DNA from: Azoarcus sp. CIB | Lineage (GTDB): Bacteria > Pseudomonadota > Gammaproteobacteria > Burkholderiales > Rhodocyclaceae | Assembly (NCBI RefSeq): GCF_001190925.1 | Contig: NZ_CP011072.1 | Coordinates: 3,844,001 to 3,908,000, forward strand | DNA length: 64,000 bases | Direction: 5' to 3' | Notes under the pieces: model-generated | Seen by the model: only the letters and a program-made list of their open reading frames with translations | Told to the model about the DNA's origin: nothing | The model's database searches: none | Part shown: positions 36,662 to 51,970 of the stretch, in pieces | How positions within the stretch are numbered: the stretch's first letter is position 1 | Layout of the letters: every line of letters begins with the position of its first letter | Made by a program: the position numbers and the translations under genes

Positions 36662-37081
36662 TCAGTTGCTTCCCGTGGCGACCGGCGGGCGGTCCTTGCG
36701 GTAGGCGTTCTTGACCGCGATCTTGCCGTCGCGGAAGGTGAAGACATCGACCATGCGCGCCTCGATGCGCGTGCCGTCGGCCTTGGTGCCGCTGAAGGTC
36801 GATTCCGATACGCCGCGGTCGCCGCAGACGAAATGGTCGCCGTCGAGCCAGGCCGCATCGGGGAAGGTCTGCCACGCGAGCTGGAAGCCGGCGCGTACCA
36901 CTTCGCGGCCTTCGAAACTCTTGCCGAGGAGGTCGGGGCCGGCGACCGCATGGAATACGCAGTCCTCGGCCATGAAGCTCATCAGGGCCTCGATGTCGTG
37001 ACGGTTCCAGGCGTCGGCGAAGGCCTTCAGCGTGTCGACGGTGGCTTCGCTGCGGATCGGGGTGGCGGTGAGGCTGCTCAT
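36662..37081 (-). CDS. tauX: SnoaL/NTF2-like protein, taurine dehydrogenase small subunit (TauX-type)
   Basis: A 139-residue NTF2-fold protein: VDTLKAFADAWNRHDIEALMSFMAEDCVF, split as VDTLKAFADAWNRHD and ALMSFMAEDCVF, then GREVVRAGFQLAWQTFPDA and VDVFTFRDGKIAVKNAY. It is the first gene of the minus-strand unit tauX-tauY-tauKLM and lies 28 bp before tauY. The TauX role is inferred from pairing with the flavoprotein; on sequence alone it is only a SnoaL-like protein. A 30-bp operator lies 36 bp upstream of its start. Confidence 0.7.
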   Translation of the reverse strand: MSSLTATPIRSEATVDTLKAFADAWNRHDIEALMSFMAEDCVFHAVAGPDLLGKSFEGREVVRAGFQLAWQTFPDAAWLDGDHFVCGDRGVSESTFSGTKADGTRIEARMVDVFTFRDGKIAVKNAYRKDRPPVATGSN

Positions 37082-37116: not shown

Positions 37117-37146
37117 TACGAAACGTCTTGTACCGTTTTTTGAAAC
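37117..37146. promoter_or_regulatory. Tripartite operator upstream of tauXY
   Basis: TACGAAAC-gtctt-GTACCG-ttt-TTTGAAAC. The same architecture (two TTCGRWAC direct repeats 22 bp apart with GTWCCG between) occurs at 41423, 43255 and 51021. GTWCCG-N5-YGAWAC also reads as an imperfect inverted repeat. It lies 36 bp before tauX and probably overlaps its promoter. The IclR protein at 51152 is the likely binder. Confidence 0.75.
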
Positions 37147-37187
37147 TTGATTTACATTAGGACTGCGCCGATACGCTGTCAAGCAAT

Positions 37188-37204
37188 ATTTCGAATATCG
37201 GTAC
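37188..37204 (-). promoter_or_regulatory. Second, single operator half upstream of tauXY
   Basis: On the minus strand this reads GTACCG-ATATT-CGAAAT, one base from the GTWCCG-N5-CGAWAC core found in the other operators. It lacks the additional direct repeat 22 bp away. It may be an auxiliary site between the tauX promoter and the thiG 3' end. Confidence 0.55.
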
Positions 37205-37249
37205 GAATTTCTATATTTTTTGAAATTCAATCGACTTTGCGCGCAGCGC

Positions 37250-38071
37250 TCACGCGATGCGACCGGCCATCGGCGACGACGGCGAGGCGGCGAAGCGGCG
37301 CGGCATGCGTCCCGCGAGGAAGGCCTCGCGCCCGCCCTGCACCGCCAGGCGCATCGCCCGCGCCATGCGCACCGGCTCGCGCGCATGGGCGATCGCGGTG
37401 TTCATCAGCACCCCGTCGCAACCGAGCTCCATCGCGATCGCCGCATCGGACGCGGTGCCCACGCCGGCATCGACGATCACCGGCACCCGCGCCTGCTCGA
37501 TGATGAGCGACAGGTTCCACGGGTTGAGGATGCCCATGCCCGAGCCGATCAGGCTCGCCAGCGGCATCACCGCGACGCAGCCGATGTCCTCGAGGATGCG
37601 CGCCTGGATCGGGTCGTCGCTGCAATACACCATCACCTGAAAACCGTCCTTCACGAGAGTCTCGGCCGCCTTCAGCGTCTCGGGCATGTTCGGGAACAGG
37701 GTCTTGTCGTCACCGAGCACCTCGAGCTTGCACAAGCTGTGGCCGCCGAGCAGTTCGCGCGCGAGCTGCAAGGTGTAGACCGCGTCCTTCGCGTTGTAGC
37801 AGCCGCCGGTGTTCGGCAGGATCGTGAAACGGTCGGGCGGCACGGCGTCGAGCAGGCTCGGCTCGTGGGCGTGCTGGCCGATGTTCACGCGGCGGATCGT
37901 CACGGTGACGATGTCGGTGCCGCTCGCGTCGACCGCGGCGCGGGTCTCGTCGAAATCGCGGTACTTGCCGGTGCCCACCAGCAGGCGCGACGCGTAGGTC
38001 CGCCCGGCGATCGTGAGCCCCGCGTCGGTCGCGGCGGGCCGGGTTTCATCCGGGGTGTCGTTCAAGTTCAT
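37250..38071 (-). CDS. thiG: Thiazole synthase ThiG
   Basis: A 273-residue Thi[46 protein letters not shown], the Schiff-base lysine in CKLEVLGD (Lys115), [13 protein letters not shown] and [15 protein letters not shown]. It condenses 1-deoxy-xylulose 5-phosphate, dehydroglycine and ThiS thiocarboxylate into the thiazole of thiamine. It lies 27 bp after thiS, within the sulfonate cluster and away from other thi genes. Xsc in the same strand group requires thiamine diphosphate, a possible reason for the placement. Confidence 0.93.
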
Positions 38072-38098
38072 TCCGTTCGCTCCTCATCTAATTGCTTT

Positions 38099-38308
38099 TT
38101 AGCCGCCGCCGATCGCGACGACGACCTCGACGCGATCGTCCGGCTTCAGGATCCGGCCCGGCCAGCGCGGCGACGGGACCACTTCGCGGTTGATCGCGAC
38201 GGCGACGCGCTTGCCCAGCAGGTCGAGGCTCGCGATGAGGTCGTGCAGCGTGCGGCCGGCGCGCAACACATGCGCAGCGCCGTTCAGTTCTATCGTTACG
38301 CTTACCAC
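38099..38308 (-). CDS. thiS: Sulfur carrier protein ThiS
   Basis: A 69-residue ubiquitin-like sulfur carrier. TIELNGAAHVL opens the beta-grasp, LLGKRVAVAINREVVPSPRWPG follows, and the protein ends VVVAIGGG with the C-terminal Gly-Gly needed for adenylation and thiocarboxylation. It is placed between the YeiH-type exporter (13 bp upstream) and thiG, so it is probably co-transcribed with xsc. Confidence 0.9.
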   Translation of the reverse strand: MVSVTIELNGAAHVLRAGRTLHDLIASLDLLGKRVAVAINREVVPSPRWPGRILKPDDRVEVVVAIGGG

Positions 38309-38321
38309 GGTCAGTCCTCCG

Positions 38322-39365
38322 TCATTGCACCGCGATCAGGCGGGCGGCGAAGACCACTGCCAGCATGTAGGCAGCGACGAACAGCGCTTCGCCCGACAGC
38401 AGCACGATCGGCTTCCAGCCCAGTTCGGCGAGCTTCTCCAGCGACGTCTTCACGCCCAGCGCGGCGATCGAGATCACCAGGCACCAGCGCGACAGCGTCG
38501 AGCTCGCCTCGACCACCTCGTGCGACAGCAGGCCCAGGCTGTTGAGCGCCGCCAGCGCCGCGAAGGCGACCAGGAAGAGCGGCAGGATCGGCGTCTTTCC
38601 GGCCTTGCCGCCGTTTTCCTTCTTGCGCTCGGCGTGGAACACCAGCGCAAGCACGACGACCACCGGCATCAGCATCGCGACACGGAACATCTTCGCCAGC
38701 GTCGCCGCGTCGCCCACTTCCGGCGAGATGATCAGGCCCGCGCCGACGACCTGCGCGACGTCGTGGATCGAGCCGCCGAGGAAGAGCCCCGCCTCGCTCA
38801 CCGAGAGGCCCGCGGCCTTCACGACCAGGGGGTACAGCACCATCGCGACAGTCGAGAAGATCGCCACGCCGATCGCGGTGAGCAGCGTGTAGCGCTCGGT
38901 CTCGCGGGTGGCGGGCAGGGTCGAGGAGATCGCGAGCGTCGCCGAGATGCCGCAGATGCCCGTACCGCCGCCCGACAGCAGGCCCAGCAGCGGCGGCAGC
39001 CCGAGCACGCGGGCGAGCAGCAGGCCGAAGCCGATGGTCAGCACCACCGCGCCGACGAGCGCACCGACGCCGATCAGACCCAGGTCGCTGACGTCGCTCG
39101 CGACGATGCGCGCCCCGAGCAGCGCGACGCCGAAGCGCACGAGCTTCTTGGCGGAGACCTCGATGCCGGGGATGCACTTGTCGTTGTCGGAGAGGAAATG
39201 GAACGCGATGCCCAGCAGCAGCGCGTAGAGAAACTGCGGTCCGCCGTAATGCTCGGACACGAAAGTTGCCGCGACCGCGATCACGGCGCACAGCATGAAT
39301 CCCGGCATCAGCACACGCACCTCGCTGAACATCGCGGGCGGCGCAATTGTCGTTTGAGTGGTCAT
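38322..39365 (-). CDS. YeiH-family putative sulfate exporter (TauZ-type)
   Basis: A 347-residue membrane protein with ten or so helices: LMPGFMLCAVIAVAATFVSEHYGG, AKKLVRFGVALLGARI, LLSGGGTGICGISATLA and LGGSIHDVAQVVGAGLIISPEVG. The YeiH family is annotated as sulfate exporters, and a member (TauZ) accompanies taurine genes in other bacteria. Downstream of xsc on the same strand, it probably disposes of sulfate or sulfite. A copy of the 147-bp-type repeat separates it from xsc. Confidence 0.85.
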   Translation of the reverse strand: MTTQTTIAPPAMFSEVRVLMPGFMLCAVIAVAATFVSEHYGGPQFLYALLLGIAFHFLSDNDKCIPGIEVSAKKLVRFGVALLGARIVASDVSDLGLIGVGALVGAVVLTIGFGLLLARVLGLPPLLGLLSGGGTGICGISATLAISSTLPATRETERYTLLTAIGVAIFSTVAMVLYPLVVKAAGLSVSEAGLFLGGSIHDVAQVVGAGLIISPEVGDAATLAKMFRVAMLMPVVVVLALVFHAERKKENGGKAGKTPILPLFLVAFAALAALNSLGLLSHEVVEASSTLSRWCLVISIAALGVKTSLEKLAELGWKPIVLLSGEALFVAAYMLAVVFAARLIAVQ

Positions 39366-39409
39366 TGGATCGGGGTCCGGTGGGGAGTCAGTTTGAGAGC
39401 TGCGCGTGC

Positions 39410-39507
39410 TCCCTCCCCTTCAAGGGGAGGGCTGGGGTGGGGATGGGTTACGCAGGCGTCGGCCGAAACCCATCCCCCTCCTGACCTCCCCCTTGAAGGG
39501 GGAGGAA
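39410..39507 (-). repeat. Interspersed palindromic repeat, copy 2
   Basis: Minus-strand copy of the element at 5714 and 46044. Arms are CCTCCCCC / GGGGGAGG, GGGGGATGGGTTT / AACCCATCCCC and CCCTCCCC / GGGGAGGG. The left and right hairpins are conserved, the centre differs, and only a weak trace of the tail (CTCAAACTGAC) follows. It lies between xsc and the YeiH-type gene. Confidence 0.85.
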
Positions 39508-39565
39508 CGCCATGCCCGGCAGACTCACATCCTTGTTTGCCGGGTCAGTCGTCAGGCTCTACGAA

Positions 39566-41377
39566 TCACACGTAGTCCTTGTACTTATCCAGGAACCGCA
39601 CCGGCTTCGACAGCGCGTCGCGGCGGAACGGGTCGCCCAGTTCGCGCGTGCACATGATCTCGATGATGCAGGTCTTGCCGTGGTTCATCTGCAGGTCGAT
39701 GGCCTTCGTCAGCGCCGGGCCCACGTCCTCCAGCCGATCCACGGTGATGCCTTCGGCGCCCATCGCCCGCGCGATCTCGGCGAAGCTCTGGTTGTCGAGC
39801 TCCCCGGCAACGAAGCGGCGGTTGTAGAAGTCCACCTGGTTCTTCTTCTCCGCGCCCCATTGGCGGTTGTGGAACACCACCGCCGTCACCGGGATGTTGT
39901 GCCGCACGCAGGTCATCGTCTCCATCAGGCTCATGCCCCAGGCGCCGTCACCGGCGTAGGACACCGCCGGACGATGCGGCGCAGCCACCTTGGCGCCGAT
40001 GATCGTCGGGAACGCATAGCCGCAGTTGCCGAAGCTCATCGCGGCAAAGAAGCTGCGCGGCTTCTCGAAACGCAGATAGCTGTTGGCGACCGAGTTGATG
40101 TTGCCGATGTCGGTCGACACCATCACGTCGGGCGGCATCGCCTTTTCGAGCTCGCGCAGCACCTGGCGCGGATGCAGGTATTCGCCGCCGGAGAAGGGCT
40201 TCTCCTTGGCGTTCTCCTCGATCATGTCGAGACTGAAGGGGTCGCGCTCGTGCGTCCACTCGTCGAGCTCGCGCTCCCAGGCTTCCTTCTCGGCCTGCAC
40301 CTTGGCGAAGCGCTGCTCGCGCGTCGCATCGCATTCCAGCGTGCGGCCGGTCAGGCGCCAGGTCAGCGCCTTGGCCGCGGCCTTGGCGTCGCCGCAGATG
40401 CCCACCGAGATCTTCTTCACCAGGCCGAGCATCTTGTTGTCGGCGTCGATCTGGATGATCTTGGCGTTCTTCGGCCAGTAGTCCATGCCGTGCTGCGGCA
40501 GCGTACCGAAGGGGCCGAGGCGCGAACCGAGCGCGATCACGACGTCGGCTTGCGCCATCAACTTCATCGCCGCCTTCGACCCCTGGTAGCCGAGCGGGCC
40601 GCACCACAGCGGGTGGCTCGCGGGGAAGGAGTCGTTGTGCAGGTAGCTATTGACGACCGGCGCGCCCAGGCGCTCGGCGAGCGCCTTGCACTCCTCGATT
40701 GCGTCGGCCATCACGACGCCGCCGCCGGAGATGATCACCGGGAACTTGGCGGTTGCCAGCAATTCGGCCGCTTCGTTGAGGCTCGCTTCGCCACCGGCAC
40801 CACGGTCGAGGCGGCTCGGCTTGGGGATCTCGCAGGTGATCTCGCCGTAGAAGTAGTCGCGCGGGATGTTGAGCTGGGTCGGGCCCATCTCGCTCATCGC
40901 GCGGTCGAAGCAGCGCCCGGTGTATTCGGCCATGCGCGCCGGGTGGGTCACGTGACCCTGGTACTTGGTGAACTCCTGGAACATCGGCAGCTGCTTGCAT
41001 TCCTGGAAGCCGCCGAGACCCATCGTCATCGTGCCGGTTTCGGGGGTCACGATCACCACCGGGCTGTGCGCCCAGTAGGCCGCCGCAATCGAGGTCACGC
41101 AGTTGGAGATGCCCGGGCCGTTCTGGCCGATCACCACGCCATGGCGGCCCGACACGCGCGAAAAGCCGTCGGCCATGTGGCCGGCGCCCTGTTCATGCAC
41201 CACCGGGATCAGGCGGATGCCGGCCGGCGCGAAGATGTCCATCGCGTCCATGAAGGCCGAGCCCATGATCCCGAACATGTCGGTCACGCCGTTGGCCACC
41301 ATGGTTTCCACGAAGGCTTCGGACGGGGTCATCTTGTGCGGGCCGCTGACGACGGTGCGGCGGTCTTGTTCGCTCAT
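39566..41377 (-). CDS. xsc: Sulfoacetaldehyde acetyltransferase
   Basis: A 603-residue thiamine-diphosphate enzyme. Pyr domain: VANGVTDMFGIMGSAFMDAMDIF and VVHEQGAGHMADGFSRV, with the catalytic Glu62. PP domain: YAGDGAWGMSLMETMTCVRH and FHNRQWGAEKKNQ, the Mg/ThDP-binding motif. Length and the unusual GTMTMGLGGFQECKQLPMF block match Xsc rather than acetolactate synthase. It converts sulfoacetaldehyde and phosphate to acetyl phosphate and sulfite. AGGAGACAG supports the ATG at 41377. A 30-bp operator lies 46 bp upstream. Confidence 0.94.
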   Translation of the reverse strand: MSEQDRRTVVSGPHKMTPSEAFVETMVANGVTDMFGIMGSAFMDAMDIFAPAGIRLIPVVHEQGAGHMADGFSRVSGRHGVVIGQNGPGISNCVTSIAAAYWAHSPVVIVTPETGTMTMGLGGFQECKQLPMFQEFTKYQGHVTHPARMAEYTGRCFDRAMSEMGPTQLNIPRDYFYGEITCEIPKPSRLDRGAGGEASLNEAAELLATAKFPVIISGGGVVMADAIEECKALAERLGAPVVNSYLHNDSFPASHPLWCGPLGYQGSKAAMKLMAQADVVIALGSRLGPFGTLPQHGMDYWPKNAKIIQIDADNKMLGLVKKISVGICGDAKAAAKALTWRLTGRTLECDATREQRFAKVQAEKEAWERELDEWTHERDPFSLDMIEENAKEKPFSGGEYLHPRQVLRELEKAMPPDVMVSTDIGNINSVANSYLRFEKPRSFFAAMSFGNCGYAFPTIIGAKVAAPHRPAVSYAGDGAWGMSLMETMTCVRHNIPVTAVVFHNRQWGAEKKNQVDFYNRRFVAGELDNQSFAEIARAMGAEGITVDRLEDVGPALTKAIDLQMNHGKTCIIEIMCTRELGDPFRRDALSKPVRFLDKYKDYV

Positions 41378-41422
41378 TGCTGCTGTCTCCTTGTCGAGTA
41401 TTCGCGAGGGCAAGATATCGTT

Positions 41423-41452
41423 TTCGGTACGTTTTGTTCCGATTTTCGATAC
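41423..41452. promoter_or_regulatory. Tripartite operator upstream of xsc
   Basis: TTCGGTAC-gtttt-GTTCCG-att-TTCGATAC, with the two TTTTCGRTAC direct repeats 22 bp apart. It matches the operators at 37117, 43255 and 51021 and lies 46 bp before the xsc start codon. Confidence 0.78.
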
Positions 41453-41571
41453 TTGAATTCAATGTACGTCGACATTTTCGAGACGTCAACACGAATTTCG
41501 TTTTTCTGAACTTTTTGTCTCTTTTATTGAAATTAATTCGATCGCAGCAAAATCTGCGCGGCGCAGACGTG

Positions 41572-41610
41572 AAAACGGCATCCGTGCCGATCGGCGCCGG
41601 ATGCCGTTTT
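41572..41610. terminator. Bidirectional terminator between APC permease and xsc promoter
   Basis: Arms AAAACGGCATCC / GGATGCCGTTTT enclose a second short stem. With T-runs on both strands it can act in both directions; it lies 56 bp past the permease stop codon and shields the xsc promoter. Confidence 0.85.
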
Positions 41611-41665
41611 CCGCGGGTGCGGCGACGTGAGGCCGGTGGCGGCCCCTGCCCCGCGCGCGAGGGGA

Positions 41666-43093
41666 TCAGGACTTCTCGAAGGCCTGTGTATCGATCATGA
41701 CGGATGTGAGATCTGGTTTCGCCCTCCACAGGCTTTTCATGCCGTACAGGGCGAGCAGGATGGCCAAGCTCACGACGCCCAGCAGGAGCGGTGTGCGCTG
41801 CTCGGGGATGAAGGCCATCGCGACGACGATCGCGAGCATGCCGACGATCGCGACCCAGGTGAGGTAGGGGTAGCACCACATCTTCACGCGCAGCCGGCTG
41901 GGGTCTTCCTTCTCCAGTCGCGCGCGCAGGCGCAGTTGCGAGATGGCGATCGACACGTAGACAAAGATCGCGACCGTGCCGTAGGAATTGACGAGGAAGG
42001 CGAATACCGTGTCGGGCGAGACGTAGGACATGACGACCGCCACGTACCCGAACAGCGTGCCGAGGAGGATCGCGCGCACCGGTACGCCGTTGCGGCTCAC
42101 CTTTGCAAGGCCCTTGGGCGCGTCGCCGCGACGCGTCAGCGCGAAGAGCATGCGCGAGGAAGCGTAGAGGCCCGAATTCAGCGCCGAGAGCACGGCCGTC
42201 AGGACGATTGCGTTCATGATCTGCGCAGCCGCCGGAATGCCGATTGCGTTGAGCGCGCTGACATAGGGCGTCGCCATCGCGGCGGAATTCCACGGTACGA
42301 GACATACGACCAGCAACACCGAGCCGACGTAGAAGAACAGCACGCGCGTGATCACGGAGTTCGTCGCCTTCGCCACGGCACGCTCGGGCTCTGCCGTTTC
42401 GGCCGCTGCGACCGTGACGATTTCGGCGCCGAAGTAAAAGCCCGTCGCTGCAACCGCTCCGGTCAGCACCGGTACGATGCCGTTCGGCATGAAGCCGCCG
42501 TGCTCGGTCAGGTTGGCGAGGCTGGCCGTGGCGTCCGGCCACATCCCCAGCACGTACAGGCCGCCGAGGAACAGGAACACGACGATCGCCGCGACCTTGA
42601 TCGACGCGAACCAGAACTCGAACTCGCCGAAGGACTTCACCGATATCAGGTTGGTCATCGTGAGGGTTACGAGCAACACCAGGCTGATGATCCAGGCAGG
42701 CACGTCGGGCAACCAGTAGCGCACCAGGTCTGCGCCGGCAACGGCTTCGAGCGCGACGACGATGACCCAGAAGTACCAGTACATCCAGCCCGTGAGGAAG
42801 CCGGCGAGATCGCCGACGGCCGGCCTGTCCGCCCAGGCGGTGCGCGCGAACTCATAGAAGGCGCCGACTGAAGGCATCGCGACGGCCATCTCGCCGAGCA
42901 TGCGCATCACCAGCACCACCAGCCCGCCGGTGATCAGGAAGGACAACACCGCGGCCGGACCGGCCGACTTGATCACCACGCCGCTGCCGACGAAGAGGCC
43001 GGCGCCGATCACGCCGCCCAGCGCGATCATCGTCATGTGCCGCTGCTTGAGGCCGTGCTGCAGCCCGCCTGAATTTCCAGATTCCGCTTTCAC
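41666..43093 (-). CDS. APC-family amino-acid permease (GabP/AroP type)
   Basis: A 475-residue permease with 12 membrane helices. LKQRHMTMIALGGVIGAGLFVGSG is the APC helix-1 substrate motif, then GLVVLVMRMLGEMAVAMPSVGAFYEFA, split here by length, and SRMLFALTRRGDAPKGLAKVSRNGVPVRA. GTG at 43093 is chosen for its GGAGGAG site 6 nt upstream. The substrate may be taurine or a related omega-amino acid given its place in the cluster, but GABA or alanine permeases look alike. It is divergent from cobS and shares its operator region. Confidence 0.85.
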   Translation of the reverse strand: MKAESGNSGGLQHGLKQRHMTMIALGGVIGAGLFVGSGVVIKSAGPAAVLSFLITGGLVVLVMRMLGEMAVAMPSVGAFYEFARTAWADRPAVGDLAGFLTGWMYWYFWVIVVALEAVAGADLVRYWLPDVPAWIISLVLLVTLTMTNLISVKSFGEFEFWFASIKVAAIVVFLFLGGLYVLGMWPDATASLANLTEHGGFMPNGIVPVLTGAVAATGFYFGAEIVTVAAAETAEPERAVAKATNSVITRVLFFYVGSVLLVVCLVPWNSAAMATPYVSALNAIGIPAAAQIMNAIVLTAVLSALNSGLYASSRMLFALTRRGDAPKGLAKVSRNGVPVRAILLGTLFGYVAVVMSYVSPDTVFAFLVNSYGTVAIFVYVSIAISQLRLRARLEKEDPSRLRVKMWCYPYLTWVAIVGMLAIVVAMAFIPEQRTPLLLGVVSLAILLALYGMKSLWRAKPDLTSVMIDTQAFEKS

Positions 43094-43254
43094 GTCCGTC
43101 TCCTCCGTTGGCGCGGCCATCTCGGCCACGACAGGTGCTTGTCGTCTTGTTGTGCGTCCGGTTGTGGCCCAGCCCATCCAGCCTTATGCACCGATTCGCT
43201 GTTTTGATCTGAATGTAGGATCAAGCCTCGACGACGTCAAGACTTATTTACGTT

Positions 43255-43284
43255 TCCGGAACTCCTTGTATCTTTTATTGGAAC
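43255..43284. promoter_or_regulatory. Tripartite operator between APC permease and cobS-like genes
   Basis: TCCGGAAC-tcctt-GTATCT-ttt-ATTGGAAC. Spacing is identical to the three other sites, with more substitutions (GGAAC half-sites). It lies 40 bp before the cobS-like start codon and 162 bp from the divergent permease start. Confidence 0.6.
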
Positions 43285-43323
43285 ATGTCTATCATGAATT
43301 GCACAAAACCCAAGGAGACTGCC

Positions 43324-44319
43324 GTGACGGAACTCGCGCTCGACACCCCGGACCAGCTGGTTCCGGTCCGCTCGCTGTTCGGAATCGATTCCGACCTGAA
43401 GGTGCCGGCCTTCGCTACCCGCGACGACCACGTGCCCGAGATCGACGCGGCCTACCGCTTCAATCCGGACGTGACGCTCGCGATCCTCGCCGGCTTCACG
43501 CGCGACCGCCGCGTGATGGTGCAAGGCCTGCACGGCACCGGTAAATCGACCCACATCGAACAGGTCGCCGCACGCCTGAACTGGCCTTGCGTGCGCGTGA
43601 ACCTCGACGGCCACATCAGCCGCCTGGACCTCGTCGGCAAGGATGCGATCGTCGTGCGCGACGGCCGGCAGGTCACCGAATTCCAGGAAGGCATCGTGCC
43701 GTGGGCACTACAGCGCCCCGTCGCGCTGATCTTCGACGAGTACGACGCCGGCCGCCCCGACGTGATGTTCGTGATCCAGCGCATCCTCGAGCGCGACGGC
43801 AAGTTCACGCTGCTCGACCAGAACCGCGTGATCCGCCCGCATCCCTTCTTCCGCCTGTTCGCGACCTCGAACACGGTGGGCCTGGGCAACCTCACCGGCA
43901 TGTACCACGGCACCCAGGTGCTCAACCACGCGCAGATCGACCGCTGGAACATCGTCGCGACGCTGAACTACCTGCCGCGCGACGAGGAGGTCGCGATCGT
44001 GCTCGCGCGCGTGCCGGCGAAGAACTACGACAAGGGCCGCCAGCTCGTCGCGTCGATGGTCGCCGTGGCGGCGCTCACGCGCCAAGGCTTCGCCGCGGGC
44101 GACCTGTCGACGCTGATGTCGCCACGCACCGTGATCACCTGGGCCGAGAACTGCGAGATCTTCCGCAATCCCGCGCTCGCCTTCCGTCTCTCCTTCCTCA
44201 ACAAGTGCGACGAGGTCGAACGCCCCATCGTCGCCGAGTACTACCAGCGCTGCTTCGGCGAGGAGCTCGACGAATCGTGGAGCGGTGAATCAAGAATCGG
44301 CGAAGCGGCGGCGAAGTGA
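43324..44319 (+). CDS. CobS-like AAA+ ATPase (MoxR/CobS family)
   Basis: A 331-residue AAA+ protein. The GTG start with AAGGAG 7 nt upstream gives the usual N-terminus [20 protein letters not shown]. Walker [10 protein letters not shown] (68-76), Walker [10 protein letters not shown] (133-141) and [15 protein letters not shown] sensor 1 are intact. It matches the CobS subunit of aerobic cobaltochelatase, but no cobN or other cobalamin genes are here. With its VWA partner it may act as a metal-insertion or enzyme-activation motor for a protein of the taurine pathway. It overlaps the cobT-like gene (GTGA). Confidence 0.88.
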
Positions 44320-46175
44320 CGCAGAGCGCGCAACAGAAGGCGAGGCGCCAGCAGAAGGTCGAGGAACTGTGCGCGGCGACGCTGCGCGCGCTCACCGGCC
44401 GGCCCGCCCTGCACTACCGCGGCCGGCGCCTGTACGCCGGCGAGCGCCTCGTGCCGCAGCACGCGCCGCACCTGCGCGTCGATCCCGGCGAAGACAGCTT
44501 CGCGGACTGCCGCGCCGCCGCCGACGGCGCCGCGCTGCGCCTGCTGCACTCCGACGCCGGCCTTCACGCGCGCCTGTGCCCCGACGACCCGGTCGAGCGC
44601 CTGGTGTTCGAGCTCCAGGAACAGCTGCGCGTCGAGACCCTCGCGCCCGCCGACATGCCCGGCATGGCGGCGAACCTGCATCATCGCTTCGAGAACTGGT
44701 CGCGCGCCTTCTACCGCTCGGGCCTCACCGAGGGCAGCGTCGGCATCCTGCTGTACACGGTCGCGCAGATGTGCTGGTCGCGCCTCACCGCGCGGCCGGT
44801 GCTGGAAGACACCGAGGACTACATCGAGAGCACGCGCATGGGACTCGTCGCGGCGCTCGGCACCGCGCTCTCCGGCATCCGCCGCCATCGTCACGAACAG
44901 CACGCCTTTGCGCGGCACGCGCTGGAGATCGCGCGCGTCGTCGGCGACCGCGTGCGCGCCGAGCGCGCGGCGCAGGACGACGAATCCGGCGAGAAGGACG
45001 ACAAGGACGCCGACGCACAGGCCGGCTTCGCGCTGCTGCTGGACTTCGACGACGCCGCGGACGGCGGCGACGGCATCGCGGCCGCCACGACCGGCGCCAG
45101 CAAAGTCTTCACCGACGCCGCCCTCGCCTACCGCGTCTACACCACCCGCTTCGACACCGAAGTCGCCGCCGGCACGCTGGTGCGCCGCGCGCTGCTGCGC
45201 GAATACCGCGAACGGCTCGACCGCCGCGTCGCCGAACAGGGCGTGAACCTCTCCCGCCTCGCGCGCCAGCTCGCCACCGTGCTCACCCGCCCCGCCCCGG
45301 ACGGCTGGCGCTTCGGTGAGGAGGAAGGCCACATCGACGGCCGCCGCCTCGCCCAGCTCATCAGCTCGCCCGCCGACCGCCGCGTGTTCCGGCAGGAGCG
45401 CCACGTCCCGCAGGCCGACTGCGCGGTGAGCTTCCTTGTCGACTGCTCGGGCTCGATGAAGGGGCACATCGAACCGGTCGCCGTGCTGCTCGACCTGCTG
45501 ATGCGCGCGCTGGAGACGATCGGCGTCGCCACCGAACTGCTGGGCTTCACGACCGGCGCGTGGAACGGCGGCCGCGCCTACCGCGACTGGATGAGCCGCG
45601 GGCGCCCGCCCCACCCCGGCCGCCTCAACGAGGTCTGCCACCTCGTGTTCAAGGGCGCCGACCGCCCGTGGCGGCGCGCGCGCGCGGACATCGCCGCGCT
45701 CCTCAAGGCAGACCTCTTCCGCGAAGGCATCGACGGCGAGGCCGTCGACTGGGCGTGCAACCGCCTGCTCGCGCGCAGCGAGGCGCGCCGCATCCTGATC
45801 GTCGTCTCCGACGGCTGCCCCTCCGACGGTGCCACCGGACTCGCCAACGCCCCCTTCTATCTGGACAATCACCTCAAGGACGTCGTCGCGCGGCGCGAAC
45901 GCGAGGGCGCGGTCGAGATCCTGGCGCTGGGCGTCGGGCTCGACCTGAGCCCCTTCTACCGCCGCAGCCTCGCCACCGACATGACGCAGGGGCTGGAGAA
46001 CTCACTATTCACCGAAATCGTGCAGCTCATCGGCGGCACCTGGTTCCTCCCCCTTCAAGGGGGGAGGTTAGGAGGGGGATGGGTTTCTGCGGCGCATGCT
46101 AAACCCATCCCCACCCCAACCCTCCCCTTGAAGGGGAGGGAGCAAACGTACATGACTCAACCTGACATCGCGTAA
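44316..46175 (+). CDS. CobT-like VWA-domain protein with repeat-encoded C-terminal tail
   Basis: A 619-residue protein. The N-terminal helical CobT region covers about 1-220, an acidic linker ([13 protein letters not shown]) about 221-234, and a C-terminal von Willebrand A domain has an intact MIDAS motif DCSGSMKG (376-383) and [13 protein letters not shown]. The GTG start overlaps the cobS-like stop. Residues 577-619 are encoded by copy 3 of the interspersed repeat, beginning exactly at codon 577 ([13 protein letters not shown]). The native end was presumably at about residue 576, and the repeat supplies the present stop codon. It acts with the AAA+ partner; the target is unknown. Confidence 0.87.
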
Positions 46176-46190
46176 TTGATTGTCGGGCTA
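46044..46190 (+). repeat. 147-bp interspersed palindromic repeat, copy 3, overlapping the cobT-like 3' end
   Basis: Nearly identical over its outer parts to 5714-5860 and of exactly equal length; the tail ACTCAACCTGACATCGCGTAA to CGGGCTA is shared. It starts in frame within the cobT-like coding sequence, provides its last 43 codons and stop, and ends 37 bp before the first Lin0512 gene. Its hairpins may also attenuate read-through into the Lin0512 pair. Confidence 0.9.
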
Positions 46191-46227
46191 ATAATTCCGC
46201 CAATTTCGCACAGGAGGAACACACGCA

Positions 46228-46581
46228 ATGGCCAAGACCCGCATGGCCGTGCAGTTCGGCATGGGGACCTCGATCCGCAGCCAGGACTACACGCAGGCTG
46301 CAGCGCGCGCAATCCGCGACGCGTTGTGGCACAACTCCCTCAATATCGCGAGCGCCTTCGGCTTCCCGAAGGAGGAAATGCTGATCGACGTCGAGATCGG
46401 CATCCAGAAGCCCGAAGCGGTCGACATCGCCCCGCTGCTGGAGGTATTCCCCTACGGCAAACCCTCGATCAAGGTCGTCCGCGGCGGCCTCGACATTCCC
46501 AAGCACGACGGCACCGGCGTCACCGTAATCGCCAACGCCGCCGTCATCGTTTCCTTCGACCTGGAGCCCGGCCATGCCTGA
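46228..46581 (+). CDS. Lin0512 family protein (first of two)
   Basis: A 117-residue protein of the uncharacterised Lin0512 family (TIGR02058): RMAVQFGMGTSIRSQDYTQAAARAIRDALWHNS, split as RMAVQFGMGTS and YTQAAARAIRDALWHN, then MLIDVEIGIQKPEAVD and VVRGGLDIPKHDGTGVTVIANAA. An AGGAGGA ribosome site precedes it. It overlaps the next gene by 8 bp. The fold is alpha-beta with no recognised catalytic motif. Its operon partners are the CobS/CobT-like pair. Confidence 0.87.
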   Translation: MAKTRMAVQFGMGTSIRSQDYTQAAARAIRDALWHNSLNIASAFGFPKEEMLIDVEIGIQKPEAVDIAPLLEVFPYGKPSIKVVRGGLDIPKHDGTGVTVIANAAVIVSFDLEPGHA

Positions 46582-46948
46582 AAAGCGCCTGATCCTCGAA
46601 ATGGGCACCGGCAACGACCTCCTCGGCGGCGACTACACCAAGGCCGCCTGCCGCGCCGTGCAGGACGCCCTGCATCATTCCGTGCTGTCCTTGTTCCGCT
46701 CTCTCGCCTACGACACGCAGGACATGCGTGTGCAGGTCACCATCGGCGTGCAGCAACCCGACCAGGTCGACGCCGAGGTCGTGCGCGCCGAGTTGCCGCG
46801 CGGCAGGCCCGAGGTAAAAGTGGTCTTCGGCGGGCTCGACGTGCACGACCCCGAGCAGGGCACGAAGCACGTCATCGCCACCGCTGCGATCGAGGCCTGG
46901 CTGCCGATCGAATCGGATGCGTGGCGGTTGGCTCCAGCGCAGACTTAA
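46574..46948 (+). CDS. Lin0512 family protein (second of two)
   Basis: A 124-residue paralogue of the preceding protein: RLILEMGTGNDLLGGDYTKAACRAVQDALHHS, split as RLILEMGTGNDLLGGDYT and AACRAVQDALHHS, then MRVQVTIGVQQPDQVDAEVV and VVFGGLDVHDPEQGTKHVIATAAIEA. Two divergent paralogues translated from overlapping frames suggest a hetero-oligomer. No function is known. Confidence 0.87.
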   Translation: MPEKRLILEMGTGNDLLGGDYTKAACRAVQDALHHSVLSLFRSLAYDTQDMRVQVTIGVQQPDQVDAEVVRAELPRGRPEVKVVFGGLDVHDPEQGTKHVIATAAIEAWLPIESDAWRLAPAQT

Positions 46949-47150
46949 CGGCGGGCGTCCGGCGGCGGGGGTTGCCGGTGCCCGCCGGCTGCTCGCTCCT
47001 GACGACCCCGAGCGGTCATTCCGGCCTGTCGAAAGCTGACGCCCAACTCGTCGGCTAACCAGCGCGAGGCGCGCACCACTTGATGTCCAAGCGCAACGGA
47101 CAGTTACGTCACGCCCCCATCGTAAGTGTCTTTCTCCTATTGGAATTAAT

Positions 47151-47804
47151 TTAGTGACCGTTGCACATACGCAAGTACCACTGCGGTTCCATGCGACGAT
47201 AGATACACTGGAACTCACGCCAGCGAATTGGAAATCGATTTAGCGACGCCCGCACTGGGCTGCGGAAGGTATACTCTCCGCCACTATTGACGGGCCCCAG
47301 CAACTCTCCATTTTCTATACGAGGCACTTCGGGAAAGAAATGGAAATCCTTCCAAACCCAGCCATGTCGGAGCGTAAATGCGTAATAGAGATTGGACGGT
47401 TCAGGCTTAATGCGCAGCGATCCGTATTTGTGCAATCGCGAAAGATCACCTCGATCACCTTCTACGCGCTTTCCTGTCTCCATCAAATAGGGATTTGAAT
47501 ACCACGGATACCCGATTGCGCTGTAGGAAACGTCGTAAACCTTGGCCCGCGTAATCAACCCCCTAGTATCTCCCTGTTCCAGCCAACCGGTATGCGATTG
47601 ATTGGAAGGGGGTTCAAACTCGCGATAACGTCGCACTATTTCTTCCAGGTCGCTGCGATTTTCGTGGAAAGTGGAAATCATCGATTCGTCAGACGGTAAT
47701 GGGTTTCGGGTCCAGGCCAACCATCCAACGGTAAGCAAAAAAACGACGATCAGTATCGTCCGCGCCAAATTCCGTTTAATCGCACCTTGAATGTACATCA
47801 TCAT
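47151..47804 (-). CDS. Membrane-anchored protein of unknown function, low GC
   Basis: A 217-residue protein with one N-terminal helix (about 12-31, LARTILIVVFLLTVGWLAW) and a periplasmic domain rich in Trp, Tyr and Arg: YDVSYSAIGYPWYSNPYLMETGKR, split as YDVSYSAIGYPWYS and PYLMETGKR, and WREFQCIYRRMEPQWYLRMC. Base composition is visibly lower in G+C than its neighbours, with ATA, AGA and AAA codons, pointing to recent acquisition. I recognise no family. It stands alone between the Lin0512 genes and the TerB gene; the flanks 46949-47150 and 47805-48045 show nothing assignable. Confidence 0.6.
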   Translation of the reverse strand: MMMYIQGAIKRNLARTILIVVFLLTVGWLAWTRNPLPSDESMISTFHENRSDLEEIVRRYREFEPPSNQSHTGWLEQGDTRGLITRAKVYDVSYSAIGYPWYSNPYLMETGKRVEGDRGDLSRLHKYGSLRIKPEPSNLYYAFTLRHGWVWKDFHFFPEVPRIENGELLGPVNSGGEYTFRSPVRASLNRFPIRWREFQCIYRRMEPQWYLRMCNGH

Positions 47805-48045
47805 TCCGCCACACGGACATCGAAGAAATGCGCCTTTGTCGCGCGGTTCTCACATTCTAACCGATCAGCATGTGCACTTCGTGCGCGGATGGCTGCTTCG
47901 GGCGCTCTGCCTGACCGACTGCTCGTGACCGATAACGGCCCCGCAACATCACTCGCCACATGGCCGCCGCAATGAAACAGGAACTCTTCACCGCCCGCGC
48001 TACACTCATCCCTCAATCGCATTCGAATTTGGATGATCCGCAACG

Positions 48046-48540
48046 ATGTTTGCCAGCCTGAAGGACTTGTTCAACGCCCTCACCGCTACGCCGGCCGGTG
48101 GCGCAACGACGTCGGGCGGTGCGGATCACGCTCTCCAGCTCGCGGCCGCGGTGCTCTTGGTCGAGGTGATGCGTGCGGATGCGGACTACTCGGCGGCCGA
48201 GCGCACCACCGTGGTCCAGGCCCTGCGCGACAAGTTTGCCCTTCGCGACGACGAGGTCGCGCGTCTGGTGGAACTCGCCGAGACCACCTCGCGTGATGCG
48301 CCGGATCTCTACAGCTTCACATCACGGCTCAACAAGGGCTTCAGCGTCGAGCAGAAGCTGCGCATGGTCGAGTACCTGTGGCAGGTGGCGTATGCAGACG
48401 GCACACTGAGCCATCATGAGAACCACCTGATGCGCAAGCTCGGCGGCCTGCTCTACATTCCCCGCGCGGACTTCATCGCGGCAAAGCAGCGGGGACGGAC
48501 GGCAGCCGGGGCGAGCGCACCGGGCAACCCGGCGCCCTAG
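48046..48540 (+). CDS. TerB-family protein
   Basis: A 164-residue helical protein: LAAAVLLVEVMRADADYSAAERTTVVQALRDKF, split as LAAAVLLVEVMRADADYS and AERTTVVQALRDKF, then FSVEQKLRMVEYLWQVAYADGTLSHHENHLMRKLGGLL, of which ADGTLSHHENHLMRKL carries the second acidic D-x-x-x-x-x-x-E motif. TerB folds carry two acidic metal-binding motifs and occur in tellurite or stress contexts. No ter operon is present here; a TerC homologue lies 10 kb away. Confidence 0.87.
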   Translation: MFASLKDLFNALTATPAGGATTSGGADHALQLAAAVLLVEVMRADADYSAAERTTVVQALRDKFALRDDEVARLVELAETTSRDAPDLYSFTSRLNKGFSVEQKLRMVEYLWQVAYADGTLSHHENHLMRKLGGLLYIPRADFIAAKQRGRTAAGASAPGNPAP

Positions 48541-48571
48541 CCCCGCCGCCAGCGCTTGCCCGCGCGCAGCG

Positions 48572-48874
48572 CTAACGCAAACGCGCGAGCGCGCCGCGAT
48601 CCTCCGCCGACAGCCGCAGCCCGAGGGGCGCGAGGCGGCGCAGCGTCTCCTCGACCTCCCACGGCGCGGCCACCATGCGCTTGCAGCCGTTTCGGAACTC
48701 CACGTGCAGCCAGTAGGCATCCACGTCCGAAGCCCGCCTCAGGTAGAGCCGCGCGACGTCCTGCGGCCGGCTCTCCAGCCACGCCAGCCCTTCCTGCTTG
48801 CGCGCGCGACCGAGCACGTACGCGGCGGACACGAAGGTGAGCGCTGCTGCAGCGACGACGACGAGTTCGGACAT
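48572..48874 (-). CDS. Small membrane-anchored protein, unknown function
   Basis: A 100-residue protein with one N-terminal helix (LVVVAAAALTFVSAAYVLG) and a basic soluble part: EGLAWLESRPQDVARLYLRRASDVDAYWLHVEF, split as EGLAWLESRPQDVARLYLR and DAYWLHVEF, then WEVEETLRRLAPLGLRL. A GGAGGTCC ribosome site on the minus strand supports it. It converges on the TerB gene. I recognise no family. Confidence 0.6.
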   Translation of the reverse strand: MSELVVVAAAALTFVSAAYVLGRARKQEGLAWLESRPQDVARLYLRRASDVDAYWLHVEFRNGCKRMVAAPWEVEETLRRLAPLGLRLSAEDRGALARLR

Positions 48875-48998
48875 AGCGGGACCTCCACGAGCGATGAAAC
48901 ATCGAAGTGGAGGATACCCGCTCCGGGGTTATTAGAACCCCATATCCTTATTGCCAATTACCATATAAGCATTGACCTGCGAGCGCGCCGCACGGACG

Positions 48999-49763
48999 CT
49001 ACCAACCCACTACGATCGCCGGCAGGGCCGACATCACCAGATAAGCGCCGATCGCCATCAACAGCGCGAAGACGAGGCGGCGCATCGTACGGGCGGCGAG
49101 CGGCGGCGGATACCGGCGCCCGATTACGGTCGCGAGCGCCACGACGGGCACCGCCACGGCGAACAGCGTCCAGATCTCCGCATCGAGCCGCCCCTGCACG
49201 CCGAGGTAGAACGAGCGCGCGGCCGAGGTGATCGTGAACAGCAGCAGCAGGATGTTGCGCACGCCGACCGGGTCCATCGGCTGGCGATAGAACTGGAAGA
49301 TCAGCGGCGGGCCGGCAACACCGAAGAGGCCGCCGCTCAGGCCGGAAAAGAAGCCGCTCGCGGCGAAGCTGATGTCCGACGAACGTTCGTCGAGCTGCAC
49401 TGGACGCAGCGCGAAGCCCACGCTGCCCTGCACGATCACGATGCCGAGGATCAGCTGCAGCACCCCGGCCGCCGCACTGCTGAGGTATTCCAGCAGCATC
49501 ACCCCGCCGACGATGGCCGGCAGGCTGCCGAGCGTCGCCGCCCGCGCCGCGCGCCAGTCGATGCCGTGCAGGCGTCCGGGCAGCGCGACGGCGCTGTTGG
49601 CGAGCGTCACCAGGCTCACGATCGCGGCAACGGTCGCCACCGGCAGGAGGTTCATGCCGCTGGTCGCCCCCATGACGATCATGCCCAGGCCGAAACCCGT
49701 CACCGTCTGGAAATAGGTCGCCGCCGCCAGCACCAGGATCAACGGCAGAGCCTCGGCGCTCAT
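48999..49763 (-). CDS. TauE/SafE-family anion exporter
   Basis: A 254-residue membrane protein with about eight helices in two halves. TYFQTVTGFGLGMIVMGATS and FFSGLSGGLFGVAGPPLIFQFY are the paired TauE/SafE motifs. Members export sulfite, sulfoacetate or organic sulfur compounds. It starts 1 bp after the pta stop, so it is co-transcribed with pta and probably exports the sulfite made by Xsc. A second exporter of a different family lies at 38322. Confidence 0.87.
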   Translation of the reverse strand: MSAEALPLILVLAAATYFQTVTGFGLGMIVMGATSGMNLLPVATVAAIVSLVTLANSAVALPGRLHGIDWRAARAATLGSLPAIVGGVMLLEYLSSAAAGVLQLILGIVIVQGSVGFALRPVQLDERSSDISFAASGFFSGLSGGLFGVAGPPLIFQFYRQPMDPVGVRNILLLLFTITSAARSFYLGVQGRLDAEIWTLFAVAVPVVALATVIGRRYPPPLAARTMRRLVFALLMAIGAYLVMSALPAIVVGW

Positions 49764-49764
49764 G

Positions 49765-50799
49765 TCACACCGACACCGCAGAAGAGGCCAGGCGGGCCTC
49801 GGCGGCGGCCTGCGCCTGCACCACCGTCACCGCGATCACGTAGAACACGTCCTCGGCGCTGCAGCCGCGCGACAGGTCGTTCGCCGGCTTGTCCAGCCCC
49901 TGCAACAGCGGCCCGATCGCGACCGCGCCGCCGACGCGCTCGGCCAATTTGTAGCCGATGTTGCCCGCCTCGAGGTTCGGGAACACCAGTACGTTCGCCC
50001 GCCCCTTGACCTGCGAATCCGGCAGCTTGCGGTTCGCGATCTCGGCGACGATCGCCGCGTCGAGCTGCACGTCGCCGTCGATCGCGAGTCCGGGGCGCAT
50101 CTCGCGCACGCGCTGCGCGGCGGCCACCACCTTGTCCACGGCCGCATGCTTCGCGCTGCCGCTCGTCGAGAACGACAGCATCGCCACGCGCGGCTCCTCC
50201 ATCAGCAGGCTGCGCGCGCTGTCGGCCGCCGCCATCGCGATCTCGGACAGCTCCTCGGCATCCGGGTCGACCACCAGCCCGCAGTCCGAGAAAACCAGGC
50301 CGCCCTTCAGGCTGTGGAAGGGCTCGCACAGCATCATCAGGAAGAAGCTCGACACGAGCTTGAACGCCTTGTTCGGGCCGATGATCTGGATCGCGGTGCG
50401 CACCACGTCGGCGGTCGTGCGCACCGCGCCCGACACTGATCCGTCGGCATGTCCCAAGCGCACCATCAGGTTCGCGAAGCACAGCGGGTCGAGCACGTCG
50501 CGCTGTGCCTGCTCCAGCGTCATGCCCTTGTGCGCGCGCAGGCGCAGCAGCACCCGCACGAACCCCTCGGTGAGATGCGAACGCGCCGGATCGACCAGCT
50601 CGATGCCCGCCAGATCCAGCCCCTCACGGAAGGCACACGCCTCTATCGCGGCGCAGCTGCCGACGAGGATGATCTTCGCCGTGCCTTCGCGCGTCGCGCG
50701 TACCGCGGCCTGCAGCACGCGCGGGTCGTCGCCCTCGCTGAGCACGATCCGTCGGGGTTCCGCGCGTGCCGTCTCGATGATGCGGTTGATCGCTTTCAT
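49765..50799 (-). CDS. pta: Phosphate acetyltransferase
   Basis: A 344-residue phosphotransacetylase, the short form with only the PTA_PTB domain. [48 protein letters not shown], split here by length, and [34 protein letters not shown] define the family. It converts acetyl phosphate from Xsc to acetyl-CoA. MKAINRII is taken as the start. It is divergent from the iclR gene over a 352-bp region holding an operator, and is coupled to the TauE-type gene. Confidence 0.93.
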
Positions 50800-51020
50800 T
50801 CCATTCACCAAAAAAATGCCGGAACCGCAGGGGTTGGGAGAAGACGCGGTTCCGGCCAGGTAACGGCCCCGTCCGGGTAAGCGGGGCCGTGGAGGGAAAT
50901 GCCAAGGATGGAGCACCGCCGGAGGAGCGACGCAGGTCACGCGCCCGCCGGCGTCGCCGCCCACATGCCGGTCAGGCGCGGGGGCGGCAACACGCATCAA
51001 GGACTTCAGATACAATCAAT

Positions 51021-51050
51021 TTCGATACGATTCGTTCCGTTATTCGAAAC
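51021..51050. promoter_or_regulatory. Tripartite operator in the pta/iclR divergent region
   Basis: TTCGATAC-gattc-GTTCCG-tta-TTCGAAAC, the best match of the four to the consensus. It lies 102 bp before the iclR start and 222 bp before pta. Location beside the regulator gene supports autoregulation and identifies the likely binder. The rest of the 50800-51151 gap shows no other feature except AT-rich promoter-like sequence at 51085-51130. Confidence 0.78.
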
Positions 51051-51151
51051 TTGATCGAACTCTAGATGCAAAACCGGGCACGGTCAACTAGTATTCTTAT
51101 AAACCGGTACGTGGTGTATTATTTATCGAAATCCATCTCAGCGAGGTCACC

Positions 51152-51970
51152 ATGAAGATCACCCGCAGCTCCGGATCGGAGCCCGCCCGCATCGATGGAG
51201 ACACCCCGACCATGCGGCTTTTCAGCCTGCTGGAAGTCATCGCGGCCAAGGACCAGACCTTCTCGCTGCAGAGCCTCGTCGAGGAAACGGGACTGCCCAA
51301 GCCCACGCTGCACCGCATGCTGCAGCAGCTCGAGTCCGAGGGCCTGCTGCACCGCGAAGGTGACGGCCGGCACTACAGCACCGGGGTACGCCTGCGCCGC
51401 CTCGCGGAGAACCTGCTCCTCAACAGCACCACCCACGGCGCGCGCCATGTCGTCCTGCGGCAGCTGGTCGAAGAGGTCGGCGAGAGCTGCAACATCACGG
51501 CCTTCTCGGGCAGCGAAGTGATGTACCTCGACCGCCTCGAATCGACCGCGCCCCTGCGCTTCTACCTGCATCCGGGTTCGCGCGTGCCGGCCCACTGCTC
51601 CGCCACCGGCAAGCTCTTCCTCGCCCAGATGACGCCCGCCCAGCGCCGGCGCCTGCTCGCCTTCGCGCCGCTGGAAAAATTCACGCCGAACACGATTACG
51701 GATCTCGATGCGCTCGAACGCGAGATCGAGGACGTCAAGCGCAACGGTTACGCGCTCGACAACGAGGAATTCCTGCCCGGCCTGCTGTGCATCGGCGTAC
51801 TCGTTCCGACGCAGCGCAAGCAGTCCAACATGGGGCTTGCGATCCAGGCCCCGATCATGCGGCTCACGCGCGAAAAGGCCTTGCAGTTCCTGCCCGCCCT
51901 GCAGCGCGCCGCGACGGCGCTCGCCAGCATCGAAGGAAACGAACCGGATGCGCAGGAGGCCGAAGCCTGA
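51152..51970 (+). CDS. IclR-family transcriptional regulator of the taurine/sulfonate genes
   Basis: A 272-residue IclR protein. The N-terminal winged HTH spans about 25-85: LFSLLEVIAAKDQTFSLQSLVEETGLPKPTLHRMLQQLESEGLL, of which SLVEETGLPKPTLHRMLQQL is the helix-turn-helix. The effector domain contains ESCNITAFSGSEVMYLDRLES, SRVPAHCSATGKLFLAQM and GYALDNEEFLPGLLCIGVLV. TauR of other taurine degraders is a MocR/GntR-type protein, so this would be a different control. Its own promoter region contains the motif found at tauXY, xsc and cobS. The effector may be taurine, sulfoacetaldehyde or acetyl phosphate; this is not shown. Confidence 0.88.
   Translation: MKITRSSGSEPARIDGDTPTMRLFSLLEVIAAKDQTFSLQSLVEETGLPKPTLHRMLQQLESEGLLHREGDGRHYSTGVRLRRLAENLLLNSTTHGARHVVLRQLVEEVGESCNITAFSGSEVMYLDRLESTAPLRFYLHPGSRVPAHCSATGKLFLAQMTPAQRRRLLAFAPLEKFTPNTITDLDALEREIEDVKRNGYALDNEEFLPGLLCIGVLVPTQRKQSNMGLAIQAPIMRLTREKALQFLPALQRAATALASIEGNEPDAQEAEA

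Follow-up and report, generated by a model that had tools for sequence, protein, structure and literature searches.

Paired three-box operators, most likely bound by an IclR-family protein, at the promoters of a predicted taurine and sulfoacetaldehyde regulon in Azoarcus sp. CIB

Among the regulators associated with the breakdown of C2 sulfonates, SauR is of the IclR type. For Cupriavidus necator H16, a sulfoacetate (sulfonatoacetate)-inducible system is described in which SauR regulates a C2-sulfonate pathway (PMC7057948). Taurine genes are known to be served in other bacteria by TauR, an activator of the MocR/GntR type, in a pathway that includes TauXY, Xsc and Pta (PMC5320631). Suvorova and Gelfand (2021, PMC8222616) describe operators made of three boxes in alternating direction for 32 orthologous groups of IclR proteins, including PcaU, PobR and HmgR, and state that tetramers are among the forms in which this family can bind DNA. 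Here we analyse a stretch of 64,000 nucleotides from Azoarcus sp. CIB (bases 3844001-3908000 of a single-contig genome of 5.26 Mb, 5,257,030 bases), which we call the window and in which positions are counted from the first letter. An initial annotation had picked out in it a tripartite 30-bp sequence in front of taurine genes, and proposed that an IclR protein encoded nearby is the one that binds it.

Our reading, to which we give a probability of roughly 0.7, is that these sites are operators of the adjacent IclR protein, that they tie together a taurine/sulfoacetaldehyde regulon whose promoters are bracketed by operators, and that they would work by the mechanism set out further below. The regulon would take in the run of tauXY and TRAP transporter genes, xsc, pta and a permease, and probably also iclR itself and cobS. 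The features at its three main promoters are the following, all promoters being predicted and the bit scores of operators being those of the matrix described below.

39566 to 41377, minus strand: xsc, sulfoacetaldehyde acetyltransferase (TIGR03457, 1081.6 bits; cut-off 676.4)
41423 to 41452, plus strand: three-box operator, proximal for the xsc promoter; 0 mismatches, 35.3 bits
41461 to 41489, minus strand: predicted xsc promoter, TTGACG-N17-TACATT, between the operators
41496 to 41525, minus strand: second, distal xsc operator, 74 bp from the first and inverted; 31.7 bits
49765 to 50805, minus strand: pta, phosphate acetyltransferase (Pfam PTA_PTB; TIGR00651, 356.7 bits, above cut-off)
51021 to 51050, plus strand: three-box operator, proximal (downstream) for the pta-directed promoter; 0 mismatches, 40.3 bits
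51059 to 51087, minus strand: predicted sigma70-like promoter towards pta, TTGACC-N17-TAGAGT, between both operators
51095 to 51131: second, distal (upstream) operator of the pta/iclR region, in the registers 51095-51124 (minus strand) and 51102-51131 (plus strand); 24.6 bits each
51152 to 51970, plus strand: iclR-type regulator gene, 272 aa (Pfam HTH_IclR and IclR_C), encoding the predicted binder
35197 to 36633, minus strand: tauY-like FAD-dependent oxidoreductase (DAO, Pfam)
36662 to 37081, minus strand: tauX-like gene with a SnoaL_2 domain, first of a run with the DAO oxidoreductase and a TRAP transporter
37117 to 37146, plus strand: three-box operator, proximal for the tauX-like promoter; 2 mismatches, 35.5 bits
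37154 to 37182, minus strand: predicted tauX-like promoter, TTGACA-N17-TAATGT, between the operators
37188 to 37218, minus strand: distal tauX-like operator; 23.1 bits, with good boxes at 37188-37204 and a weak third box

Both Xsc (TIGR03457) and Pta (TIGR00651) of this sulfoacetaldehyde (Xsc) pathway cluster thus score above cut-off, and the tauY-like protein reaches the cut-off of none among the 25 NCBIfam models shown. The name tauX is one that we take from layout and not from a family model.

The letters that had been read at the four original sites are present at all of the coordinates given for them, and the claim that the four share one layout held for three. With the consensus TTCGRWAC-N5-GTWCCG-N3-TTCGRWAC (at most three mismatches unless stated, with the same pattern read backwards as control), 41423-41452 and 51021-51050 match perfectly and 37117-37146 matches with two mismatches, while 43255-43284, with five, is a poor fit. 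There are three consensus matches in the window, against a mean of 0.00 in 100 shuffles, and a scan of the whole genome returns the same three sites as its sole matches (backwards control, 2), which means that at this threshold the three-box pattern has no match at unrelated genes. The constancy of spacing that had been asserted is borne out in related DNA. When the IclR protein was used as query on genome contigs it retrieved 540 relatives, and in the best 80 of these (hereafter the 80 related loci) 5/3 is the only one of 36 spacer combinations to be enriched, with 20 matches against 0-2 for each of the other 35; 40 scrambled consensuses give on the same loci, again at up to three mismatches, a mean of 0.075 matches and at most 1, against the real 20. 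The motif persists in the orthologous clusters. Boxes two and three together make up an inverted repeat of 17 bp, GTWCCG-N5-CGRWAC, and box one is a direct copy of box three. The shorter version reported at 37188-37204 is indeed a two-box core, on the minus strand with one mismatch, and it proves to be part of the second tauX operator.

We also built a matrix by motif search, for which the earlier consensus was not used. The regions upstream of iclR numbered 94 at the start (the 80 named loci and 14 G-handle loci, partly the same DNA), and 63 out-of-genus regions were left once the window's own genus, the G-handle loci, regions with more than 20 30-mers in common with a kept region and those shorter than 60 bp had been dropped; their partner is xsc in 45, the permease in 2 and pta in 1, and 15 are without a window gene. 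Of 60 motif-search starts, the six best all converge on this three-box motif, two of them with a shift of one base. Applied to the window, this matrix places its 15 best matches (some being overlapping registers of one site) entirely within the four promoter regions, and its first match elsewhere reaches 11.2 bits. As for the controls, the maxima were 2.9-17.2 bits in 20 simulated 64-kb windows, and averaged 13.2 bits, with a largest value of 21.4, for 100 column-permuted matrices on the real window. Both controls are far exceeded by the three main sites, at 35-40 bits, and by the second xsc operator, at 31.7, and are somewhat exceeded by the second operators of pta/iclR (24.6 bits) and tauX (23.1). 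Judged by such comparison of sequences, the three-box motif is real for three of the original sites and weak for the fourth. In the 80 related loci 197 sites exceed 18 bits, and 147 of them lie upstream of the orthologous iclR, a share that is biased, the loci having been fetched by this IclR and the matrix trained on its upstream DNA; a further 26 lie upstream of other genes of the window cluster (xsc, cobS, tauX-like, permease and YeiH-like) and 16 upstream of other IclR genes (29-44% identity), with 8 unassigned.

The picture of one operator per promoter, with which the locus was first described, is contradicted by second operators at about 41496-41525, 51095-51131 and 37189-37218, and the unit is instead a pair of operators that brackets a promoter. 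Two sites above 8 bits are found in 51 of the 63 regions (50 column-permuted matrices give a mean of 0.02 regions with two), at a distance of 73-75 bp in 30 and of 76-84 bp in 17, with four outliers (22, 22, 90 and 178). The two operators face each other in 32 of these 51 regions and share an orientation in 14 and 4, the same-orientation calls being uncertain because registers overlap. For the promoter itself we took the 38 of the 45 xsc-partner regions that have two sites above 8 bits lying 70-86 bp apart. In 38 of 38, the best-scoring promoter towards xsc has a 17-bp spacer and is located between the operators, and it starts with TTGAC in 33, although the promoter finder prefers 17-bp spacers by construction, which tells against this count and is the reason why plain letters, whose positional count has no such preference, were counted too. 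Relative to the proximal operator, TTG then stands at -38 in 26 of 38 regions and TANNNT at -15 in 26 of 38, with the runners-up at 9 and 8. Between the end of the distal operator and the -35 box lie about 6-7 bp, a distance that is nearly fixed (6-7 bp in 25 of 38 regions), and the proximal one begins about 8-9 bp past the -10 box. In the window, the promoters of xsc, pta and tauX follow the layout of these 38 regions (TTGAC-N17-TANNNT between operators), and the strict cassette, at up to three mismatches, occurs twice in the genome, at xsc and pta with 0 mismatches each, tauX not being included and the control giving 0. Transcription would start at the bracketed promoters, at positions that are predicted. 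The site that had been placed in the pta/iclR region without a direction, at 51021, can now be described as the downstream operator of a promoter directed at pta; iclR runs the opposite way.

The candidate binder belongs to the IclR family (PF09339, 2.2e-12; PF01614, 2.1e-38; both above the gathering scores) and is 99% identical to a protein of Aromatoleum toluolicum (locus L023). It falls below the cut-off of the PcaR/PcaU/PobR subfamily (TIGR02431, 139.7 bits against 284.75) and of the other NCBIfam equivalogs, namely BhcR (148.3/350), KdgR (115.8/275), IclR (112.1/380) and AllR (70.8/406). Among the 80 named loci, the gene divergent from the iclR orthologue is xsc in 50, pta in 8 and the permease in 7, and 15 have none of the window genes sought in that place. 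Relatives of the protein (E at most 1e-60) occur in 16 of 150 genomes of the family, with at least 71% identity in 12, and 10 of these 12 are among the 22 of the 150 that have xsc. We also compared 32 xsc loci from the 150 family genomes and 398 phylum genomes (one of them, L145, without upstream sequence): the best site within 350 bp scores 14-33 bits at the 19 loci whose Xsc is 80% or more identical to that of the window, 2-13 bits at the seven with 67-73%, and no more than 2 bits at five of five with 56-61%. Genome G137 holds both kinds of xsc, with sites at the first (L129) and not at the second (L153). Site strength follows the identity class, and the motif is therefore tied to one class of xsc; the idea that all xsc genes are targets was rejected on the class of 56-61% identity, which is without sites. 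We infer that the operators are bound by the adjacent IclR protein, and the comparison supports what had been proposed at the outset, a shared taurine/sulfoacetaldehyde operator most likely bound by that protein.

Some genomes hold further copies of these genes. Two xsc copies, about equally similar to the window's, are found in each of G139 (L130 and L150), G145 (L133 and L151) and G067 (L135 and L152), and G067 and G145 have two copies each of the iclR orthologue. Beside the xsc cluster of L029 (1740-4386) a second IclR-family gene, 36% identical, is divergent from a GMC oxidoreductase; it has a similar upstream motif and perhaps regulates another sulfonate entry route. IclR-family genes (40-44% identity) near the cluster in L037, L038, L055, L065 and L077 have related three-box motifs upstream, and the operator type may be one that is shared by paralogues.

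The initial annotation had set the IclR protein against a TauR of the MocR/GntR type, and comparison supports such a different regulator in relatives. In Cupriavidus, Azoarcus L1K30 and other relatives the gene immediately upstream of tauX is a tauR of the MocR type. In the window and in eight of eight Aromatoleum-clade relatives it is thiG that occupies tauR's place, and no tauR was seen beside tauX in nine of nine loci of the clade, in a flank of about 1.5 kb. The tauX genes of this clade have a proximal operator of 22-30 bits in nine of nine loci and a second one above 6 bits in eight of nine (L172 has one site), and TTGAC-N18-TANNNT stands at -100/-101 of tauX in the window and in eight of eight clade relatives; where tauR does stand beside tauX, no operator site rises above 6 bits, in five of five loci. 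Nor does the window's genome encode a close TauR, the best match reaching 36% identity against about 58-100% for the copies near tauXY in relatives, and CTGGAC, the sole form of the TauR motif sought, is absent from the 300 bp upstream of the window's tauX. This is possibly a regulator swap at tauX in the Aromatoleum clade, of the IclR system for the MocR-type TauR.

The stretch between xsc and tauX has features of its own. Here thiG and a thiS-like gene (so called by position and length) lie on the same strand as both, at 37250-38310. Xsc needs thiamine diphosphate, and the cluster may therefore provide for its own cofactor supply. At 39405-39512, between the YeiH-family gene and xsc, there is an inverted repeat, rich in G+C and with ends that are CCCCTTCAAGGGG-like, which has the look of a dispersed repeat.

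The fourth of the original sites is a weaker operator between two divergent genes, in the following setting.

41666 to 43093, minus strand: amino-acid permease, GABA-permease-related (TIGR01773, 548.5 bits, below the cut-off of 678.1)
43212 to 43240, minus strand: predicted permease promoter, TTGACG-N17-TACATT
43247 to 43284, two registers: fourth, weaker operator between the divergent permease and cobS-like genes; 21.1 and 20.8 bits
43324 to 44319, plus strand: cobS-like AAA gene (CobS_N and AAA_5; TIGR01650, 550.5 bits, just below the cut-off of 558.55)

Both start codons are predictions, GTG 43093 for the permease from the sequence (the longest frame begins at 43177) and GTG 43324 for the cobS-like gene from its ribosome-binding site (the frame is open from 43285). 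The site had been assigned to the cobS-like gene, which it does adjoin, lying just upstream of the predicted start at 43324, but its geometry is that of the upstream operator of the divergent permease promoter. In the window, L023 and L024 the operator lies upstream of a permease-directed TTGAC-N17-TANNNT promoter, and the distance from its start to the -35 box is 36 bp in both L023 and L024, as at xsc, and 43 bp in the window, where it was called in the other register. Five further loci from the genus have the site too (L023, L024, L025, L027 and L028), and in seven of seven Cupriavidus loci a promoter of this type at the same permease is flanked by two operators. An assignment to cobS alone is doubtful because of this geometry, and a plain cobS operator was accordingly set aside, with a role at cobS as a possible addition; the site probably serves the amino-acid permease. 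After the permease region, at 43324-46945, come the cobS-like gene, a cobT-like gene and two genes of the Lin0512 family, and 56 of the 80 related loci hold a cobS relative, which in 44 comes immediately behind the IclR orthologue. Chelatase-like proteins accompany sulfonate breakdown in such loci.

Taken together, we can sketch how promoters of this kind might work. Each operator offers three half-sites in alternating direction, and the main promoters have two operators, usually inverted and separated by seven helical turns (about 74 bp), around a sigma70-like core promoter, with the proximal operator overlying the predicted transcription start. With no inducer at hand, the protein would occupy both operators on the same face of the helix, perhaps bridged as a tetramer, and would block RNA polymerase; the inducer, most likely sulfoacetaldehyde, would lift the downstream block and let the upstream-bound protein aid the polymerase. 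In the Aromatoleum clade the same IclR system would govern tauX too. We favour sulfoacetaldehyde because the regulator stays with xsc across clusters with different entry enzymes. Taurine as the sole likely ligand was rejected, the regulator and xsc occurring also with a GMC oxidoreductase (L029) and with an altronate-dehydratase-type enzyme and a TTT transporter (L047), and these two clusters make a shared intermediate the likelier ligand. A bolder version would have an IclR tetramer clamp the promoter through mirror-image three-box operators seven turns apart, a ligand that turns the block into an activating platform, and a cassette that arose at tauX in the Aromatoleum ancestor while the MocR-type tauR gene was lost, so that an unrelated regulator naturally replaced the earlier one; we offer this tentatively, and think it rather unlikely to be right as a whole.

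Several observations weigh against our reading. The two-box core alone is unspecific genome-wide, with 23 matches at up to one mismatch, 5 of them in the cluster, and 19 for the control. Just one site above 8 bits is found in 12 of the 63 regions, and weak distal operators are frequent. A match inside the cobS-like gene is closer to the consensus (four mismatches) than the fourth site (five), and at 20.8 bits (21.1 in the reverse register) the fourth site is above the simulated windows and inside the range of the permuted matrices (largest 21.4 bits). In L029 and L050 the permease lacks both an operator and such a promoter, the cobS gene of L043, L069 and L071 is without an operator, and in two genomes of the family that have a close IclR, G115 and G140, no xsc passed the search threshold. 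Four tauX-like loci, L181-L184, have neither operator nor adjacent tauR (within a few kb of L181 the same genome carries a gene of the MocR type, in L095, and L184 is a second, 60% identical tauX-like copy in Aromatoleum buckelii). The tauX contrast belongs to one clade, and therefore perhaps to one event. Finally, the distal operator at iclR/xsc could equally serve iclR, and similar motifs upstream of other IclR genes mean that a paralogue could bind too.

If each paired operator served its own divergent gene (xsc or pta on one side, iclR or cobS on the other), the spacing would reflect back-to-back promoters and there would be no bracket. The pairs studied come mostly from divergent iclR regions, the distal site is often the weaker one and the fourth site lies between divergent genes, all of which suits this account; we nevertheless find it unlikely, with tauX having no divergent gene, because the upstream thiG runs in the same direction, and yet a second operator in eight of nine Aromatoleum-clade loci, and with the offset of the promoter to both operators being nearly constant. 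The thought that another IclR paralogue, or several jointly, is the main binder and the adjacent protein not the principal regulator draws on the strong sites in front of other IclR-family genes (16 of 197; 29-44% identity) and on three other IclR relatives (20-31% identity) encoded in the window's genome. It appears improbable to us given the 147 of 197 strong sites upstream of this orthologue (in a biased sample), the sites at xsc of at least 80% identity and their absence from the 56-61% class, and a genome without another three-box site at up to three mismatches. A further rival is pure repression: protein at the downstream operator would act as a roadblock, the upstream operator would contribute cooperative occupancy, and the inducer would simply release the protein. 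The downstream operator is usually the stronger and overlies the predicted transcription start, and several IclR members are named repressors in the molecule names of their structures, but the nearly fixed 6-7 bp from distal operator to -35 box is a position from which an activator would contact polymerase, and PcaU is termed an activator in the title of a reference cited by PMC8222616; we regard pure repression as somewhat doubtful, if more probable than the other rivals. Chance, or common descent of intergenic DNA with no operator at all, could point to several loci being close relatives, and deserves next to no credence against scrambled consensuses that average 0.075 matches where the real one has 20, the removal of 30-mer-sharing regions before motif discovery, and a layout common to the promoters of three different window genes.

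In the open-licence literature, which omits most subscription journals, we found neither an IclR protein linked to xsc nor a paired bracket of this kind; the portions consulted of PMC6829993, PMC7057948, PMC3141670, PMC8369764, PMC12542777, PMC9888536 and PMC2864759 contain no such link to xsc, and the word "taurine" is absent from the main text of PMC8222616. What our reading offers is a likely regulator, now named, for sulfoacetaldehyde and taurine breakdown in many Beta- and Gammaproteobacteria, and an exact promoter layout that is testable by moving or removing a single operator. It also offers a natural case in which one regulator family may have taken a promoter over from another.

As to the known systems, the operator arrangements of TtgV and E. 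coli IclR at their promoters are unlike that of the window. Both proteins (TtgV, 2xrn/2xro; E. coli IclR, 1td5) are among the sequence matches of the window's IclR protein. What SauR shares with the window's predicted regulator is a C2-sulfonate pathway as its target (PMC7057948), and TauR differs in protein family and in operator, which consists of direct repeats of CTGGACYTAA (PMC5320631). The operator read from the sequence at the outset is real in its three-box layout, but that layout is an already known IclR operator type: as in the operators of PMC8222616, three half-sites alternate, and the inner pair fits the GTT-11-AAC class, 51034-51050 and 41436-41452 being, when compared by eye, near matches to group 1 (GTTYCRYW3RYGRAAC). 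Set beside group 2 of the same paper (TGRAACA-N1-2-TGTTYCA), the boxes alternate alike and the outer pair has an AC-GT distance of 5 nt here against 3-4 there. The paired operators lie about 74 bp apart around a promoter, whereas the paper gives a tandem spacing of 18-22 nt with a weaker excess at three and four turns. The operator type is thus known, and what this locus would appear to add to it is the use for taurine and sulfoacetaldehyde, the paired bracket and the contrast at tauX.

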